Assembly (NCBI GenBank): GCA_030052745.1
Contig: JANBVO010000005.1
Location: 1,116,001-1,180,000 of the forward strand
DNA from: Pleurostoma richardsiae
Lineage: Eukaryota; Ascomycota; Sordariomycetes; Calosphaeriales; Pleurostomataceae
DNA: 64,000 bases
Direction: 5' to 3'
This document shows, piece by piece, positions 29,427 through 43,964 of this stretch. The notes beneath the pieces are model-generated. The model had not been told where the DNA came from. It worked only from the letters and a program-made list of their open reading frames with translations, and did not search any database. The translations under genes were made by a program, and so were the position numbers. Each line of letters opens with the position of its first letter. Position 1 is the stretch's first letter.

Positions 29427-31587
29427 ATGGCTCACGCAGGGTCTGCAGCAGCACCTGTCAAGGTGAGTGCTGCTGGCCTTACCGTTCTGACCGAGCCGGA
29501 AGCACCGTCGCTTGAGTGCGTACACAGTTGTCCGTACCCTCCTTTTGCCGTTGACTAATTTCGCAAGCATTGTTTTCGTCCACGGCTTCACTGGTCATCC
29601 GGAGAGGACATGGACCTCGCCCAGTGTGGCCGCGACGTCGAGTGCGACGTCCACAAGCAGCACCGACGAGCGACCATCCAAGTTCAGGAGGATTCTAGGC
29701 CCAAGGAAGAGTTCCGCTCAACAGCTTTCCGGTCCGACTGGCGTCTACTGGCCTCATGCTCTGCTTCCGCAGACTCTGCCGGACGCTCGCGTCCTGACGT
29801 ACGGCTATGACACAAACGTACGCCACGCTTTCGTCGGACCAGTAAGCAAGAACTCGCTGTACGACCATGCCGGTGACTTCCTTGTCTCTTTGGAAGCAGA
29901 GAGGCGAGCGGATCCGCAGCGACGGCTGATATTAGTCGCCCATAGCCTTGGAGGCCTTCTCGTGAAGGAGATGCTGCGACGCTCTCGGGGCTATGAAAAG
30001 CAGCCCGACTTCCGGACCGTCTTCGAATCTACCGTGGGAATCATCTTCTTCGGGACCCCTCATCAAGGTGCTGACCCGCGTACACTCGCGCACCACGTTG
30101 TCATCTCCCTCGCGAAAGCTGTCGGGTTCAGAGTCAACGAACAGGTTATGGAAGCCTTGTTCCCAGCGGCAGAGTACTTGAAGCAATTGAGGGATGAGTT
30201 CAACCACATGATTGATGAAAGGGGCTGGATTATCCACTCCTTTCAGGAGCAATACGCGCTTCCTGGGCTTTTCGGCAAGAAGGTGCGGCATGTCTATCCT
30301 GGCGAGTGGATCGATTCTAGCTGATCTAAGTTTCTGTTGAAGGTTGTCGAGGACGATTCATCCTGCATCTGGAACTCGGCCGCCGAAATTGTTCAGCACA
30401 TTGGCAGCAACCACAAGGACATGTGCCGCTTTCCCGGTCTACAGGATCTGGAGTATCGGAAGGTTGCTTCGGCCCTTCAACGTATTGCAAACGCTCAAGT
30501 CCCAGAAATTACACCATTGAATCACCAAGCCAAACGCCGGGCATCTGGGCATGCCAGTGGCCATCGCGAAAGCCTAATGGAGTCCTTGAGATTCTACCTG
30601 ATTGACTCTCGATTCTCGTCAGTGGCTCGAGCTCATACTCGCACATGCCAGTGGCTGCTCAAAAACTCTGTATACGAAACGTGGCTGAGTGGAGATGTTT
30701 CTGAAGCACATGGGTTTCTCTGGATCAAAGGCAAACCCGGTGTAGGCAAATCGACTATCATGAAGTTTGCTCTTGACCATGCCAAGAGTATGATGGGAAA
30801 GACGCTTATCCTCCATTTCTTCTTCAATGCAAGGGGCTCGGAGCTGGAAAAGTCCACTCTAGGCCTCTATAGATCACTCCTTTATCAGCTGCTCCAGCTT
30901 GTCCCGGAGATCCAACATGTTCTCGACAGCATTCCCGAAAGTTATGCCGGTTCCGGATCAGATGTATGGGCTCTCAACTTCGTTAAAGACCTCTTCGAGG
31001 CTGCGATAAAAAGACTTGACAATCGGTCACTGGTGTGCTACATAGACGCGTTGGATGAGTGCGACGAGGACGAGATTCGAGATATGGTCTCATTCTTGCA
31101 AGATCTCTGTGATCGTGCCATGTCAGAGCACTTAAAACTACGCATTTGCTTGTCAAGTCGTCACTATCCATACATTAGCATCGACAGGGGCTTGTCCATT
31201 GTCCTGGAAAAGGAGGAACACCATGACGACGACATTGCGAACTACATTGCCAGTGAGCTCAGGATCGGCAACGGCGAGTACGTCCGGGCAGTCAGGAGAG
31301 ATATTCAGGAGAAGTCCTCGGGGATCTTCATGTGGGTCGTGCTCGTCGTTCGGATACTGAACAAGGAGTATGACCGCGGCTTCGTTCCTGCGCTCCGCAA
31401 GCGGCTGGAAGAAATACCCCGAGGTCTTCATGAGCTGTTTGAGAATATTTTGACCCGCGACAGCGACAATCTCGAACATATGTGGCTTTGCATCCAGTGG
31501 GTTCTGTTTGCACGCCGCCCTTTTGCCGTTGACGAGCTTTACTTCGCCATTCTTGCCGGAATTCCAGGCTCAAACCTAGGCCCATAG
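29427..31587 (+). CDS. SesB-like hydrolase + NACHT NLR-type protein, ended by an in-frame TAG
   Basis: Fungal NLR-like proteins of this build act in allorecognition and programmed cell death. I infer exons 29427-29515, 29568-30282 and 30343 onward. The introns (GTGCGT...CGCAAG and GTGCGG...TTGAAG) are 52 and 60 bases. Joined, they restore DIVFVHGFTGHPERTWT and GKKVVEDDSS. Residues about 30-268 form an alpha/beta-hydrolase (lipase-like, SesB type) domain with nucleophile motif VAHSLGG near residue 152 and GIIFFGTPHQGAD. The NACHT P-loop GKPGVGKST lies near residue 398 and Walker B YIDALDECDED near residue 500. The frame stops at codon 683 (TAG, 31585-31587). The same frame then continues without interruption into the ankyrin part listed next. 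A truncated 682-residue protein with hydrolase and NACHT domains could still be made. Confidence 0.85.
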
Positions 31588-33624
31588 GATCGCAAGCAAC
31601 TCAGTGTCGCGGACATGAAACGCTTCATCCTCAGTTGCTCCAAAGGATTTACGGAGGTGACGAAAGGGACAGACACGCATGTCGTCCAGTTCATTCATGA
31701 ATCTGTCAGAGACTTCCTCCTCAAGGAACATGGACTAGGCAAATTGTGGCCACAGTTTCGCCACAAATTTGAGGGAGAGAGCCATGAGACACTGAAGAGG
31801 TGCTGCGAGACATATATGCTGTCCAGTCCTGGCTGCGATGACTCCAACTCACGTCGTTCTGTGCCTCTGGATACGATTCGACGAAAGCACCCGTTCCTCA
31901 GTTATACCATTCGCAACATATTTTACCACGCCGACGCAGCACAGAGTCTGGGAGTCAGTCAGGACACGTTCCTTGGGTCATTTGCCCTGGACAAATGGCT
32001 ACTGCTGAGCCAGAAATTGGAACGATACCCCGTACGGCGTCATACGACCAACGCCCATCTGCTTTACGTCCTCGCAGAATATGACGCCTCGCATCTCGTC
32101 CAGATACATCCTGATGTTTCGTCTCATCTGAAAATCCGCGGGGAAAGATGTGGACTTCCCCTTTTTGTCGCCCTTGCTCTTGGACACCACGAGACGGTGA
32201 AAGCCTTTGTGTCCCGATCGCTGGCACACATGGCCTGCCGTTGCAACACCCCCACATCAGGAGACATCAAATATCATGTCTATGGTCGGGATTTTGGATC
32301 TCGTTCTGACCTGGATACGGCTGTTGATCTGATTATGGCGGGCGACTCGATTATAATGCATGTTCTTCTTACAGCAGGCGTCCTTGACCTAGGTCCTGAC
32401 GACGCAGTCCTGAACGCTCTGCCAGCCGCCTGTACATATGCGCTGTTTGAGGATGATGCTATGCTTCAAGTCTTCTTGGCGCATATTAAGGCAGGCCGGG
32501 AGTGGATTGTCGGACATCGATATACTCTGCTGTGCTGCACCGCTAGAGTAGGACGAGTAGGAGCGTTTAAGAAGATGCTCGAATTTCCAGATACAGCGCA
32601 GAGGGTGCAGAATAGAAACAGGAGACGTAGCTGGGAAAAGCCAGACACCACGCTTCCCTGCCATTCATTCTCCGCTTCTCCGCCAGCATTTGACGCCCAC
32701 CAACCCGATGACTCGACTTCTCTCCTCACCATCGCTGTGCGAGGAGGGTCCGCCGAAATCGTGAAACTGCTTTTGTATAACTCACGGACCGACTCCAGCT
32801 TCGACATAAACGCACGAGATCGCACAGGCCATACGGCTCTGTACTGGGCTGTCAGAGACGGCTATCAGCCTAACTCTCACCAGCTCCTTAGAGTGCTTCT
32901 AGACGTTCCTCGCCTCGACGTCAACATAGTAGATTTCAGCCATGGTATGACAGCCATATGCTACGCTCTCCAACATGGCATGAACGAAGTGGCCAAAATG
33001 CTCCTTCTTGCCCCGCGGATCAACGTGAACTTGACCGACAGTGAGGACTTTCCGCCGCTCTATTATGCCGTGGTACGTCCGCCTGCATTCTCAAGAGGAG
33101 ACCTTCCAGATAACTTAATGGATGACGCCCTTGGTAGACTCGCGGAAGCCTATTGCAAGTGCAAGGGATGTCGAGATGGCGGGATAGACGAGACCAGTGA
33201 GATTGCACTTCGCCTTCTGGAAGACCCGCGAACTGAACTTGCCTGGGAAACTTCCGAGGGAGAGACGGTTCTGCACTTAGCCATCCAGAGGAGACGGAAG
33301 TCAAATAGACGGACTTTATTCGAAAAGCTACTGCACACTCCTGGGATCTACGTTGACCAGAGAAAAAAAGATGGCCGTACGCCTCTATCACTCGCCGCGG
33401 GTGACGGTATGGACTGCGTCGTCAAGCAGCTTCTTCAAACTGGATCCGTCGACGTGAACTCTGAAGACAAACAGGAGAACACACCTCTGACTTACGCCAG
33501 AAGATGGGGCCATGATAGCACTGCAAGGATTTTGCTCGAGGCTGGAGCACGTACCGGCCCTGCCGCAATGAAATTGATCGACGGGACTGAGGCGAGCGTG
33601 GCTCAACAAGAATTTGAGAAATGA
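31588..33624 (+). pseudogene. Ankyrin-repeat 3' part of the NACHT gene, cut off by the in-frame stop
   Basis: This is the same reading frame as the upstream NACHT exon, uninterrupted for a further 678 codons. It begins DRKQLSVADMKRFILSC, then FIHESVRDFLL, which in relatives follows the NACHT module directly. Ankyrin-like repeats follow (SLLTIAVRGGSAEIVKLLL, GHTALYWAVRDG, GMTAICYALQHGMNEVAKMLL, GETVLHLAIQRR, GRTPLSLAAGDGMDCVVKQLL, ENTPLTYARRWGHDSTARILL). No splice pair removes the TAG without deleting the conserved VDELYFAIL segment. A conserved Trp is expected at the stop position (GPWDR), which suggests TGG became TAG. It could instead be a sequencing error or an allele. Confidence 0.7.
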
Positions 33625-37748: not shown

Positions 37749-40700
37749 CTAACGAAGCTCCGCTAGGCTGGCGGCTGCTTTCTTCTTCGGGAGGCTGGAG
37801 TTGAGTGGTTTGATTATGTGAAAGCTGCAAAGCAGATCCGAGGTGACCGACATAACGGCTCCCGAGTTATCAAACTCGCCGCAATACTATCTCTTGTCAG
37901 CCGTCTATAGACTCATGAGCTGGAGGAGTAGAAATTGGAAGCACTGACATTCGGGGCACTGAAAATTGTGACTAATTGCCTGTCGTAAGAGAACTCGTAC
38001 CCGTCCTCAACAACTTGATGCGCTCGACAGATGAGGTCAAAGTCGTGCTTGGCAAGGAAGCTGCTGACGATGCCCTTTCCAAAGGTGTAGCTGACACCCC
38101 GGTCGTTTTCGCCCCAATCTGTAGCCGCGTTGTCGGGTTCATTGCACGGATCGGACCAAAGAAGGTCAGCTAGAAGCCCGGAATCTGAAACGTCGGTCGG
38201 GCGAGCAATATTGCGAATGTCGTTCATGTCTCGAAGATCTGGAGACAGGCCGCCATGAACGCAGAAAATCTTGTCCGCGACTATAGCTGCCATTGGCAGG
38301 GTGTTGAACACGTCAATGAAAACCTTCCACATTTTGATGGAACTTCTTCGTTTGCATTCATCGTAGAACCCATATATTCTACTGATGTTCGCGGACTCGT
38401 GGTTGCCTCGTAGGAGGAAGAAAGTGTCTGGGAATTTCAGTTTGTAGCACAAGAGGAGGAGTATAGTCTCAAGGGACTGTCGACCGCGATCCACGTAGTC
38501 GCCGAGGAACAGATAGTTGGTGGAGGGAGGGAATCCGCAGGTCTCGAAGATCCGTATGAGGTCGTGACATTGGCCGTGGATGTCGCCAACTATGGTCAAA
38601 GGTGACTCTAACTCTAAGAGCACTGGCTGGGAGAGGAAGAGCTCCCACGAAAGACGGCAGATCGTGGCGATCTCGTCATGCCCCAAACAAAACAGTTTAG
38701 GAAGCCCGCTCATCCTGGCAGCGACTAGTAGCCGGTCAATACAGTCGTCGAGGTTGATGTCTTGGAGCCCGGTCGCGGCCATAGCTCCACCAATGCCCGA
38801 GGTGCCTATGGAGGAGTAGCTAGGAGATGCCGCGGTGGGAGGAGCGGATTGTATTTGGTCCAAGATGGCTCCAACTGTGGGCTGCGGCTTGTAATGCTGC
38901 GGACCCCACGCGGCATTTTCCGGACTGCGAGTAACTAGGGAGATATCCTTGAGAGCGTCTGGCCTGTTCTGGCTGCTCTGTCCACTCTGAGCGGGAATCA
39001 AACTGGATGGAGGCGCAAACCCCAGGAAACGCGAGTGGCTTGCGGGTTCGGTCAGTCGCGTAACTAGTTGGATTGATCTAATGTCAGGAGCAGCCGCCAA
39101 GATGTGATGTACAATTCTGAGCGAAGAGACCATGTGGGCATATGGCTCATTTTCGTATGCTGCGATAATCATGCCATATAGGACCTGGCCCCGAACGACC
39201 CAGGCACCTGAACAACCCTTAGCTGTCGATATCATTACCGGTTAGTGAGGTGATTCTGAATAGAGCTAGTGACTGAGGTGACATGCCTAGTATTCCGGGT
39301 ATCCTGATCTTCGAGGTTTCAAAGTTGACTCCTCGGAGACTGAAAAGAGCCTTTCCCGGTAGAAGGTAACTCTCGACTGCTTCATCAGGTCCAAGGATTA
39401 GTTGGACTGCGCCTTCCGGCATCTCGGTACTATTCGGAATTGACGTGACATTGCCTGGCTCTTCGGAGCTGGCCTTGAATGTATTCTGCAATGGATGCCA
39501 TAGCTCCCACAGTGTAAAATCGGAATCTGGTATCCCGTGTCTAGATGATGCGGTCGAGTGGTCCCGTGTCTCTATGCTCTTCGGTTTCGGAGAGGTCAAT
39601 GACTCGGAATCGGTTCCACTGCGAGTACGATTGCTTGCCCTTCCGTCAGTCTGGCGTAGCAGCTCGATCAAGGAGGCCGAGTCGGTAGCGCTGTCTCCTA
39701 GGAAGCTGGTCGGACCAACTCCTGCAATGGGCGCCCATTGATGGCCATAGCAGAAATTTACCTGTCCTAGGGGCTTTTCCCACGGTTCAAGCTCCAAGAC
39801 CCTGAAGCTTTCTTCAGAAGTCTCCGAGGCGCTATCGGATTCATCATCGATTTCCGAGTCCGAGGTACCCTCTTCGAAATCGTCCGGAATAGCCGAGACT
39901 GCCGCTATATGCTCAAACATGGCATGAGCGGTTGTGATTCCGAGAGACTTTCCATCCACAGACACAAGCCCTCCGATTCTTGAGATTCGTTGTGATATGA
40001 CGACACCCTTTTGACTAACTGTAGCACAAGAAAGCAGCCCGCAAGCTGAAAGACTATTATGTGCTGGTTGCTCCACATGCAGGTATAGAGAAGTATCCTC
40101 TCCTATCGGGAGACCCATGCCTGGATAGAATCTTAAGTCCTGAATGACTTGAACGTCTTCGAAAGCGCAGAGTTGGGGGCATCCCTTTCTGATCTCGACT
40201 CCCCCAAATCCTTCTCCCTTGAGCCAGTCTATCTCCTCAATGAAGCGTTCGATATCGCTCTTCCATCGAGTCTTGTCATAAAGAATCCAGATGCATGGAG
40301 ATAATGCGACTTTCTTTGAGTCCTTTGCGGCGTGACCAGACATCCGAAGCTGGGCTGACAAGCTGGGACCGACCCCACGTCCCTTCTTGCTCTTCTTCAT
40401 CTTGTTTTGGAACTCCTGAAGATCAGTCCAGAGTCTCGAGGCCACGTAATCCTGCCATTTCTTCCATTGCGCGTCCGGCGGTCTAACTTTGTCTTCGAGT
40501 CCGAGGTAGAGGCCCGAGATACCTTTGAATGGGTATATGTAATCTGGGGACGGTATGTCATAAACATGAGTGTCGGTGACTGAATTCGCCTTGGCAGGTT
40601 CCGAAGCTGGTCTAGTCGAGTTTGGTGAAATTGACGAAGAAGAAGAAAAAAAAGAGGTTTGGATAGTCGAGTCATCGGGAGTATTGGTGGTGGAAGGCTG

Positions 40701-41357
40701 ATCGTTGGGCCGGAATTGCGAGAATTTGGCCGGCGATTTTCCCTTCTCCAGGTCTGTAGAAGCACCCAAAGTCTCGCAGTCATCACCTCCTGGATGAGAT
40801 AATCCGCGCGATGTCTCTGTTTGTCTAGACGAGCCGATTGAAGGCTCATAGCCTTCCGCCTCGTGTTCGGTATTGATGCTACTGGAACAACCCGACGCAT
40901 CTGCGCGAATTTCAACATCGTCGTGATTCAACCAAGACTTTAATCGGCTCAATCTGCTGGCGCGGGGAAGACAGCTGCTGCTTGCAGCACAATGCGAGCG
41001 CTTGGCGAGTTCGTCATCCTGAATGCTAGCTGAGGGGCCTTGTGACTGAGATAAGCTCCCATTTTCGAAAGCGGTGGACCGGTCGAAATTCGACGTTGCA
41101 GGCGCTGTTCGCCCGTGCAAGTCTTTGCTATCCGTCTTGGTCCTTGTCTGTTCCGCGTGATGGGAAGGATCCGCGAGTAGTACCCTACTGTCCTCCGCGA
41201 CCTCAACCAGCGTAGTCGATTGCTCCGTCCTCATCCTTCCATGAGGTTTCGAAGTTGTAACTATCAAATGCTGACAAGCGAGGCAACGAGGCGAGGCAAG
41301 TCTATTATGCGGGCATCGGATTAAGTACAAGACGCTTGCGATCCCACGCCGCAGCAT
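37749..41357 (-). CDS. Chymotrypsin-like domain fused to a PP1-type Ser/Thr phosphatase
   Basis: I infer exons (5' to 3', minus strand) 41357-39287, 39222-37949 and 37886-37749: 1160 residues, all phases consistent. Intron 1 (64 bases) is a GC-AG intron (AG|GCATGT...CGACAG) with a CACTAAC branch site. Intron 2 (62 bases, GTCAGT...GATAG) restores SAPNYCGEFDN. Residues 1-420 are Ser-rich and disordered. About 420-740 resembles fungal trypsin-like domains: [11 protein letters not shown] at the His position, and [10 protein letters not shown] plus [16 protein letters not shown] at the Ser position after splicing. Residues about 850-1150 are a complete PP1 catalytic core: [67 protein letters not shown] and [13 protein letters not shown]. 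No stop separates the parts. An in-frame ATG at 38782 ([13 protein letters not shown]) could start a separate PP1, so two genes remain possible. The start could also be the ATG at 41234. Confidence 0.78.
39223..39286 (-). other. Inferred GC-AG intron in the PP1-fusion gene
   Basis: The two long frames on either side are offset by one base. Removing these 64 bases, bounded by AG|GCATGT and CGACAG with CTAAC 18 bases before the acceptor, joins them in phase and produces [13 protein letters not shown]. No GT donor nearby gives an equally good join. Confidence 0.6.
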
Positions 41358-41579: not shown

Positions 41580-42644
41580 ATGGAGACTCAGGCGTCTATC
41601 AATACAATATGGCCGTCCGTTACCGATGGAGAGATCGAGGCTATGGGGAGTCATTACGCAAACTTGCTAGAATATTTCAATAGCGAGTTGGCGACGATTG
41701 TGGAAAACAGTGACTTGTTTGCTCTCGCCGCTCCGAGTGAGATATTAAGATCGATCCGAGAGCTCAAGTTGCTGGGGTCAGTTCCTAGGCTGGAAGCCAT
41801 CGAAACCCTTCGTCGAGGATTCACGACGCAGACATCATCAGAAGACAGAATCCTGCGATCACTCGATGCTGCTGTTCGTCTGTGGCTCACAGTCAATATC
41901 ACGTCTTCGGGCGTTAGGCGGCCCGGGCTGCTTGTCTGGACGAATGAGCAAACACTGGGGGACTTGATCGCGTTACATTTCAAGCAGCTCTCCAGCTCGC
42001 AAGGCTCCGTCGCTCTCGATGAGCGTGTTCCCCCGGACCTAACAGCCGATTCTCTTGTCAACAACTACGGTTTTACAGTGTCTTGGACGCATAACCTGGC
42101 GGCTCACCTGATCATCGACTGGAAGCACAAGATCATTACCATCTACGAACACAAAGTGTGTCTGCAGAACCACATACGGTTTCCAGGAAACTCTCTGATA
42201 CCGGATGACGTTCTGGGGGAAGCCATAGACACACTGAATCTCCTCTTCCCCTTTCAGGACGATCCGACCAAGAGATTCCTCGCTAAACACAAGAAGCCTT
42301 TCTACGGGCTGGGGTTCTGCAACAGGCCAAGGAAACTCGAGCTCGTTGAGTATCGTTACTGGAGGAACAGAATTGCGGATCTCGTCGACATATTGAAAGG
42401 GCCACCCGTGGGGTTGCAGCAGCTGCGACTGGAGAGAGACGGTCGGAACCTCCTACAGTTTGCAACATTCTGGATAGCTACGGCGGTGGGCATCTTGACT
42501 ATCGTCAGCATTGGGATCGGTGTGGTATCAATTGTCTACAGTGCAAAACAGTATGATCTTGCTGTTAAGCAGTATGAGCTTTCGGTTGTCCAGACATGCC
42601 TAGACCCTTCAGTCAGGACGCAAATACCCCATATCTGTACTTAG
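41580..42644 (+). CDS. Fungal hypothetical protein with one C-terminal membrane helix
   Basis: The protein is 354 residues, from the ATG at 41580 (METQASINTIWPSVTD). The N-terminal 300 residues are soluble and contain regular segments such as DAAVRLWLTVNI, SFTVSWTHN-like strands (GFTVSWTHNLAAHLI) and LNLLFPFQDDPTKRFLAKH. The last fits a family I have seen as uncharacterised in many filamentous fungi, near NLR-like and HET genes. One strong hydrophobic helix (FWIATAVGILTIVSIGIGVVSIVY) lies near residues 305-328, followed by the YSAKQYDLAVKQYEL motif and a short tail. No enzyme motif is visible. A short ATG in another frame at 41552 is unlikely to be used for this protein. Confidence 0.7.
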   Translation: METQASINTIWPSVTDGEIEAMGSHYANLLEYFNSELATIVENSDLFALAAPSEILRSIRELKLLGSVPRLEAIETLRRGFTTQTSSEDRILRSLDAAVRLWLTVNITSSGVRRPGLLVWTNEQTLGDLIALHFKQLSSSQGSVALDERVPPDLTADSLVNNYGFTVSWTHNLAAHLIIDWKHKIITIYEHKVCLQNHIRFPGNSLIPDDVLGEAIDTLNLLFPFQDDPTKRFLAKHKKPFYGLGFCNRPRKLELVEYRYWRNRIADLVDILKGPPVGLQQLRLERDGRNLLQFATFWIATAVGILTIVSIGIGVVSIVYSAKQYDLAVKQYELSVVQTCLDPSVRTQIPHICT

Positions 42645-43551: not shown

Positions 43552-43624
43552 CACACGACCTCCAGATATCAATGTCTGAAGTTAGTTCTTCAGTCTGGCG
43601 CTCTCCCAACTGAGCTAAACCCGC
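43552..43624 (-). pseudogene. Truncated tRNA-Phe copy (3' part missing)
   Basis: Read on the minus strand from 43624, this matches the complete tRNA-Phe at 43859 through the acceptor 5' strand, D arm, GAA anticodon, 20-base intron and variable loop, with one intron difference. After the first strand of the T stem (GTGTG) the match stops. The T loop, the second T-stem strand and the 3' acceptor strand are absent, so no mature tRNA can form. Confidence 0.85.
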
Positions 43625-43931
43625 CGTTGAGCCCAAGCCAGGCGACCAGCGAAGCGCGAGCTGGAGAGTGTAGTATAGTGTCCTCCGTACCACCTTGTAC
43701 AGCGGCGCAAGCCAGACAGAACCCCACATGCTCCACACCCACCTCACAACTTTCAGCCCTAGGGCTCCAGGCGCGCACACCACATAATGCACAACAACGG
43801 AACCGAAACCAACAACGGACCAGCGAGCGATCGCTGGGCGCCTGGCTTGGGCTCAACGGCGGGTTTAGCTCAGTTGGGAGAGCGCCAGACTGAAGAACTA
43901 ACTTCAGACATTGAAATCTGGAGGTCGTGTG
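43552..43931. repeat. Inverted repeat of 100-base arms around tRNA-Phe
   Basis: Arms at 43552-43651 and 43832-43931 are reverse complements with about two mismatches by eye, separated by 180 bases. Each arm holds 27 bases of 5' flank and the tRNA-Phe up to the T stem. Confidence 0.88.
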
Positions 43932-43951
43932 TTCGATCCACACAAACCGCA
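43859..43951 (+). tRNA. tRNA-Phe (anticodon GAA) with a 20-base intron
   Basis: The cloverleaf: acceptor GCGGGTT against AAACCGC; D arm GCTC-AGTTGGGA-GAGC; anticodon stem CCAGA/TCTGG with loop CTGAAGA; T arm GTGTG-TTCGATC-CACAC. The intron is at 43896-43915, one base after the anticodon. The acceptor stem has a G-A mismatch at pair 5:68, unusual for this tRNA. A five-T run follows at 43960. Confidence 0.93.
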
Positions 43952-43959
43952 AGCCTTAA

Positions 43960-43964
43960 TTTTT
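43960..43964 (+). terminator. Pol III T-run after tRNA-Phe
   Basis: Five T residues nine bases after the tRNA end. Confidence 0.65.

Follow-up and report, generated by a model that had tools for sequence, protein, structure and literature searches.

A gene joining a trypsin-like domain to a PPZ-type phosphatase in Pleurostoma richardsiae, and a divergent membrane-protein gene that may form a conflict module with it

On the minus strand of the 64,000-nucleotide stretch of Pleurostoma richardsiae DNA analyzed here (the window), a gene at 41234-37749, with its coding end at 37749, encodes, or recently encoded, a protein in which a trypsin-like domain is followed by a PPZ-type phosphatase, as judged from its reading frames and motifs (Table 1). 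The gene is a fusion by descent, and the join between the protease-like part and the phosphatase is largely real. Together with the divergently transcribed gene at 41580-42641 it is tentatively read as a two-gene module for conflict or regulated cell death, which we consider quite possible, short of probable. The analysis was made from the sequence of this one genome, a 39.4-Mb assembly of 136 contigs. Several exon joins were set by eye, and the stretches used in the homology tests were likewise picked by eye. A previous sequence-only reading had delimited the gene as 37749..41357, which is correct; a start at ATG 41357 instead of ATG 41234 amounts to 41 extra codons.

Continuity between the GCSGAWVV stretch and the phosphatase, which had been claimed before, was confirmed. 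The S motif of the trypsin-like domain and the phosphatase core lie in one uninterrupted frame (39241-37949) with no stop between them, and all 153 codons from 39241 to ATG 38782 are open, for which a base-composition estimate gives a chance probability of about 0.003. It could be supposed that two neighbouring genes are present, of which one is protease-like and ends near 39218 or is spliced elsewhere and the other is PPZ-like and begins at ATG 38782, since this ATG stands directly before the phosphatase core and the frame is broken upstream of it. However, the S motif of the protease would then sit in the phosphatase frame ahead of ATG 38782, and the genome's own PPZ is still protein upstream of the place that aligns to this ATG, which falls inside the own PPZ, approximately 200 residues from its start and two residues before an internal Met. 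Two genes are considered very unlikely, and on this alignment and frame evidence a separate phosphatase gene from ATG 38782 is disfavoured. The upstream frame of the fused gene gave no Pfam match at E values up to 1.

Table 1 Features of the fusion gene and of the divergent partner gene, in positions of the window
Feature	Position	Strand	Basis or remark
Upstream frame (low-complexity N-terminus and H/D half of the trypsin-like domain)	39219..41234	-	671 open codons from ATG 41234 to the stop at 39219
His codon of [11 protein letters not shown], candidate catalytic His	39924..39926	-	Codon checked
Asp codon of SDFTLWEL, candidate catalytic Asp	39519..39521	-	Codon checked; matched by eye to D[WY]AL of the 4 other members
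Frame overlap, 23 nt, +1 change	39219..39241	-	First join
Second frame, from the S-motif half of the trypsin-like domain through the linker into most of the PPZ-type phosphatase	37949..39241	-	Single open frame; the frame itself runs 39241-37913
Ser codon of GCSGAWVV (KGCSGAWVV near the frame start), candidate nucleophile	39209..39211	-	Codon checked
PPZ-type phosphatase domain, exon part up to SAPN	37949..38782	-	Pfam PF00149 and PF16891, PDB matches, tree, motif places
Phosphatase motif GDIHG	38573-38587	-	Motif place checked
Phosphatase motif GDYVDRG	38483-38503	-	Motif place checked
Phosphatase motif GNHE	38396-38407	-	Motif place checked
62-nt GT-AG intron at SAPN|YCGEF (restores SAPN|YCGEFDN)	37887..37948	-	Place and phase as in the genome's own PPZ gene
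Terminal exon with the phosphatase end and the stop codon	37749..37886	-	Coding end 37749
Divergent partner gene, 354 residues, one C-terminal hydrophobic helix	41580..42641	+	Profile of three relatives 47.6 bits, 0/2000 shuffles
Predicted membrane helix, residues 301-319, 35 residues before the C-terminus	42480..42536	+	Kyte-Doolittle mean 2.36 over 19 residues

The phosphatase had been described as a PP1-type enzyme. By sequence comparison it is of the PPZ type and not PP1. Its best PDB matches are 5jpe and 5jpf, which we take to be Candida albicans Ppz1, and these came ahead of PP1. In a tree of seven rows the window phosphatase, the genome's own PPZ and the 5jpe/5jpf Ppz1 were grouped with a support of 95/97, with the window phosphatase placed outside the pair formed by the own PPZ and Ppz1 (99/97). 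Branching outside both other PPZ rows implies that the window copy is either old or fast-evolving; its branch length was 0.26 vs 0.1 for the own PPZ. Identity was 69.9% (211/302) with the own PPZ and 66.6% (193/290) with the own PP1. At the diagnostic sites, fixed differently in two PPZ rows and two PP1 rows, the window phosphatase is PPZ-type 24 times and PP1-type 9 times, and of the sites invariant in the same four rows it has kept 145/159, with 14/159 changed. Furthermore, the intron at SAPN|YCGEF occurs at the identical place and phase in the own PPZ, and the own PP1 reads through there. The metal-binding and catalytic motifs expected of a phosphatase of this kind are all there in the window protein, in agreement with the complete core reported earlier. 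A PPZ-type N-terminal extension with a (myristoylated) Gly2 was not found in the window protein, which begins MRTEQ or MLRRG. Homology of the linker to the N-terminus of the own PPZ was considered and found unconvincing, as 16 of 500 shuffles reach the score. In a review, diverse fungi are described as usually having one Ppz gene, and the N-terminal half of Ppz as poorly conserved (PMC6506691). A second, fused Ppz copy is therefore unusual.

The sequence-only reading had assumed a single frame by way of two splices. The second of these, the 62-nt GT-AG intron, stands; for the first, in the 23-nt overlap, there is no consensus intron. A total of 79 GT-AG joins (donors 40000-39222, acceptors down to 38950, up to about 500 nt) stay open. 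The donor has G at +5 in only 4 of these 79, none of which retains both the D and the S motif, and an ordinary consensus intron was rejected as the first join on that account. The smallest open GT-AG join is 16 nt and gives 1135 residues from ATG 41234, in place of the 1160 residues stated before. The overlap region contains ACTAAC, which resembles a branch site, and CGACAG 19 nt further on. Scored on the segment profile, introns of 148, 118 and 112 nt reached 15.3, 13.1 and 11.4, the +1 reading 9.5 and the 16-nt join 9.1 (best of 1000 shuffles 6.9); on the whole-domain profile no join variant came above the best shuffle (5.2 vs 7.4). A long intron was the top variant in 3/3 profile sets, above the 95% point and below the maximum of controls with shuffled upstream sequence. 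The profile scores do not separate the 16-nt join, the +1 reading and introns of 112-208 nt. A codon-bias scan was weak, speaking modestly for the expected frames and failing in parts of the N-terminus. The frame change is possibly a weak or non-consensus longer intron, a frameshift or an assembly error. A non-consensus longer intron is possible because of the ACTAAC and CGACAG elements near the overlap and the slightly higher scores of long introns with poor donors on the family profiles, and with such an intron the gene would be ordinary and intact.

The gene may also be broken in this assembly. A decaying copy, in which the fusion is by descent and the frame has since been broken, would yield no working protein, or the phosphatase alone from the inner ATG. 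Decay would agree with a +1 frame change lacking a consensus intron, with the 14 altered sites and the longer branch of the phosphatase, and with the NACHT-ankyrin frame at least 4 kb away, which as assembled also has two stops. However, long frames have stayed open on both sides of the change, the metal and catalytic motifs and the intron are intact, and the long-intron readings score slightly higher on profiles in each of the three sets, within the range of the shuffled-upstream controls. Decay is on balance judged unlikely, and the fusion is treated below as a gene that encodes, or recently encoded, its protein.

Five trypsin-like genes were found in the genome, which is a lower bound: the window gene, two genes on contig C67 (C67a and C67b) and one each on C46 and C18. 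A degenerate DNA pattern for G[DC]SG[AS]WV led to three places, the window and the two on C67; the C46 and C18 members were added through homology of the membrane partner, a second pattern and a protein search, the C46 place having earlier been a weak match to a trypsin-like query (E 0.28). Pattern hits on C1, C49 and C60 were rejected as members. Their frames have 24, 46 and 115 codons and lack the surroundings of the family, and a reversed control pattern also gave three hits, so these are regarded as chance. In all five members the H, D and S-type motifs follow in order, as read by eye: His (TTAH, TVHH or PAHA), D[FWY][AT]L and G[DC][SC]G. In an automatic full-domain alignment the D and S motifs line up and not all of the His motifs do. 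The nucleophile place is occupied by Ser in the window, C67a and C67b members and by Cys in C46 and C18; the window S motif is GCSG, not GDSG.

Against a profile of the four other members, the H-region of the window protein scored 18.8 bits (0/2000 shuffles; best shuffle 9.0) and its S-region 16.1 bits (0/2000 shuffles; best shuffle 8.9), the tested S-region stretch including residues read across the frame change. An N-terminal domain common to some of the relatives was undetected in the window protein (0.6 bits, 129/2000 shuffles). The trypsin-like part had no Pfam match in the lists examined, which for C18 were the best 25 of 57 families. In a PDB profile search the window S motif gave a weak match (E 1.1) to an entry annotated as a possible membrane-associated serine protease, 3k6z. 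The chymotrypsin-like domain proposed earlier is upheld in the order of its motifs and in the match of its H and S regions to four members, and has no Pfam match. A trypsin-like fold is probable, and the domain is a putative protease. Short-peptide pattern matches in viral contigs (123) and in bacterial or archaeal contigs (127), a weak test, yielded none that was confirmed as a relative.

No second join of a trypsin-like domain to a phosphatase was found within this genome, where the other trypsin-like domains are followed by different C-terminal parts. In place of the PPZ of the window member, the C18 member has about 24 tandem HEAT units (33-residue/99-nt unit, 77% matches; L040 6190-8584) and the C46 member a DUF7896 domain (L039 1792-6269), each behind a trypsin-like domain of the Cys type. 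C67b ends in an unannotated Trp-rich tail and C67a in a short acidic tail. The C67a member (L029 1341-5136) also differs at its other end: a HeLo domain (PF14479, E 1.4e-7, above the cut-off) lies upstream of its trypsin-like frame. Its gene model, in which HeLo, a kinase-like stretch and the trypsin-like domain are joined by way of a 52-nt GT-AG intron, has 1244 residues; the kinase-like stretch was identified by eye and had no Pfam match. In this single case, and as a gene model, the HeLo and trypsin-like parts appear to be joined.

This diversity bears on the proposal that a real trypsin-like/phosphatase protein acts in ordinary signalling (ion, cell-wall or stress, as Ppz does), with the partner protein as its substrate or anchor. 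Salt tolerance and cell-wall integrity are among the processes in which Ppz enzymes take part (PMC6506691), and every phosphatase motif has been kept in the window protein. Nevertheless, the same protease-like domain and the same partner occur in other members whose C-terminal parts are unrelated and include a repeat array, and a HeLo domain is found in one member. Ordinary signalling is held to be distinctly unlikely, and the conflict or cell-death module is preferred as the working interpretation.

The second gene of this module, at 41580-42641, stands head-to-head with the window fusion gene, with 345 bp between the ATGs (starts chosen by eye). Relatives of it were found on C46 and C18 by sequence homology (E 2.9e-4 to 1.3e-3), and once these places were read, both partners proved to be head-to-head with a trypsin-like gene (2/2; 501 and 695 bp). 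The C67b partner was first noticed as the neighbour of the trypsin-like gene (636 bp) and then tested by homology, giving BLAST E values of 0.002-0.003 with the window partner and 0/500 shuffles against each of the other three; in each of the 6 pairs within the family none of 500 shuffles reached the score. All four partners have one C-terminal hydrophobic helix followed by a tail of 11-35 residues, as in tail-anchored proteins. They are probably tail-anchored membrane proteins of one family, a prediction from helix placement and homology. Every partner gene found (4/4) adjoins a trypsin-like gene, and 4/5 of the trypsin-like genes found have a partner, both totals being lower bounds. The exception is C67a: no partner was present in the 10 kb read, and the partner searches gave no match there. 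No Pfam family came above the cut-off for the partner (for C18, among the best 25 of 57 families), and no gasdermin appeared in a PDB profile search up to E 10. Structure prediction of the partner reached a pLDDT of 37.6, too low for a fold to be assigned.

A NACHT gene had been put forward as the relevant neighbour of the phosphatase gene. RNase H and aspartyl-protease genes lie between this NACHT-ankyrin gene and the fusion gene, and the relevant neighbour is instead the divergent membrane-protein gene. The suggested signalling or defence setting agrees with what was found, in that the surroundings look like fungal conflict or cell-death genes. At 29491-33624, alpha/beta-hydrolase-like, NACHT-type (NPHP3_N) and ankyrin segments are found in one frame with in-frame stops at 30322-30324 and 31585-31587; this is a fungal NLR gene with either unusual splicing or a broken frame. 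On the other side of the fusion gene, in the region 43590-43960, two oppositely oriented occurrences of a tRNA-like stretch were seen by eye, near 43870-43940 and 43580-43640.

For the two-gene module the following course of events can be envisaged. The trypsin-like protease is probably cytosolic and carries PPZ as its C-terminal part. The variable C-terminal part (PPZ, HEAT repeats, DUF7896 or the unannotated tails) would sense a trigger. The trypsin-like domain would then be released and might act on the tail-anchored partner, leading to membrane damage. In C67a the HeLo domain, present in cis, would take the role of executor. That the only partnerless member has a membrane-attacking HeLo domain in cis fits control of an executor by the protease, in one case. 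PPZ itself could mimic the cell's own Ppz as an integrated decoy, or serve as a regulatory enzyme part. Action on the partner, cell death and the sensor or decoy role of the C-terminal part are what we infer from this arrangement. The further proposal of a new immunity or allorecognition system, in which a Ser/Cys trypsin-like protease with swappable C-terminal parts is paired head-to-head with a tail-anchored executor and has captured a duplicate Ppz as integrated decoy or enzymatic output, is speculative and somewhat doubtful. Neither this pair nor the fusion was recognised in the open-access literature searched, and the NLR effector lists examined in PMC4986451 and PMC9815663 do not include a trypsin-like domain. 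If the proposal is true, the protease-gasdermin and NLR-HeLo pairs of fungi would be joined by another module triggered by a protease, one that uses a different executor. A conserved signalling phosphatase would rarely be found inside a conflict protein as this captured second Ppz would be, and whether anything targets Ppz in fungi would become directly testable.

Several known systems share features with this arrangement. Fungal gasdermins are described in a review as adjoining multidomain proteases, in which WD40, ANK, TPR or kinase-like parts are frequently attached to the protease domain; HELL domains are described there as fused to kinase or pseudokinase domains (PMC12881547). C-terminal kinase domains of Sordariales NLRs, close to CHK-2, are proposed to be integrated decoys (PMC12258605). 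The window gene resembles these NLRs in having a copied signalling-enzyme domain at the C-terminus of a presumed receptor, but no NACHT, NB-ARC or other nucleotide-binding domain was found by Pfam in its two frames. C67a, with its HeLo domain and the kinase-like stretch seen by eye, is comparable to the HeLo/HELL proteins that have a kinase or pseudokinase part (PMC12881547), to which its gene model adds a trypsin-like domain. With Ppz1/PZL-1 the window phosphatase shares the catalytic domain of the PPZ clade and, as in the own PPZ, the SAPN|YCGEF intron. Unlike in Ppz1/PZL-1, the usual disordered N-terminus (MGNQPS in the own PPZ) is replaced by a trypsin-like protein, and the window gene is an additional copy in a genome that has its own PPZ. 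As in the protease-gasdermin clusters (het-Q1/het-Q2 and CHAT-TPR with gasdermin; PMC12881547), a protease with variable fused parts lies beside a membrane-acting or membrane-anchored protein, here in four places and with a predicted membrane role. The protease is trypsin-like here, whereas it is of the S8 or CHAT type in the clusters described there (PMC12881547), and the partner, encoded head-to-head, has one C-terminal hydrophobic helix in place of a gasdermin match. The best reading is a conflict module of a protease and a membrane executor that resembles the fungal protease-gasdermin clusters, with PPZ perhaps being one swappable part among others.
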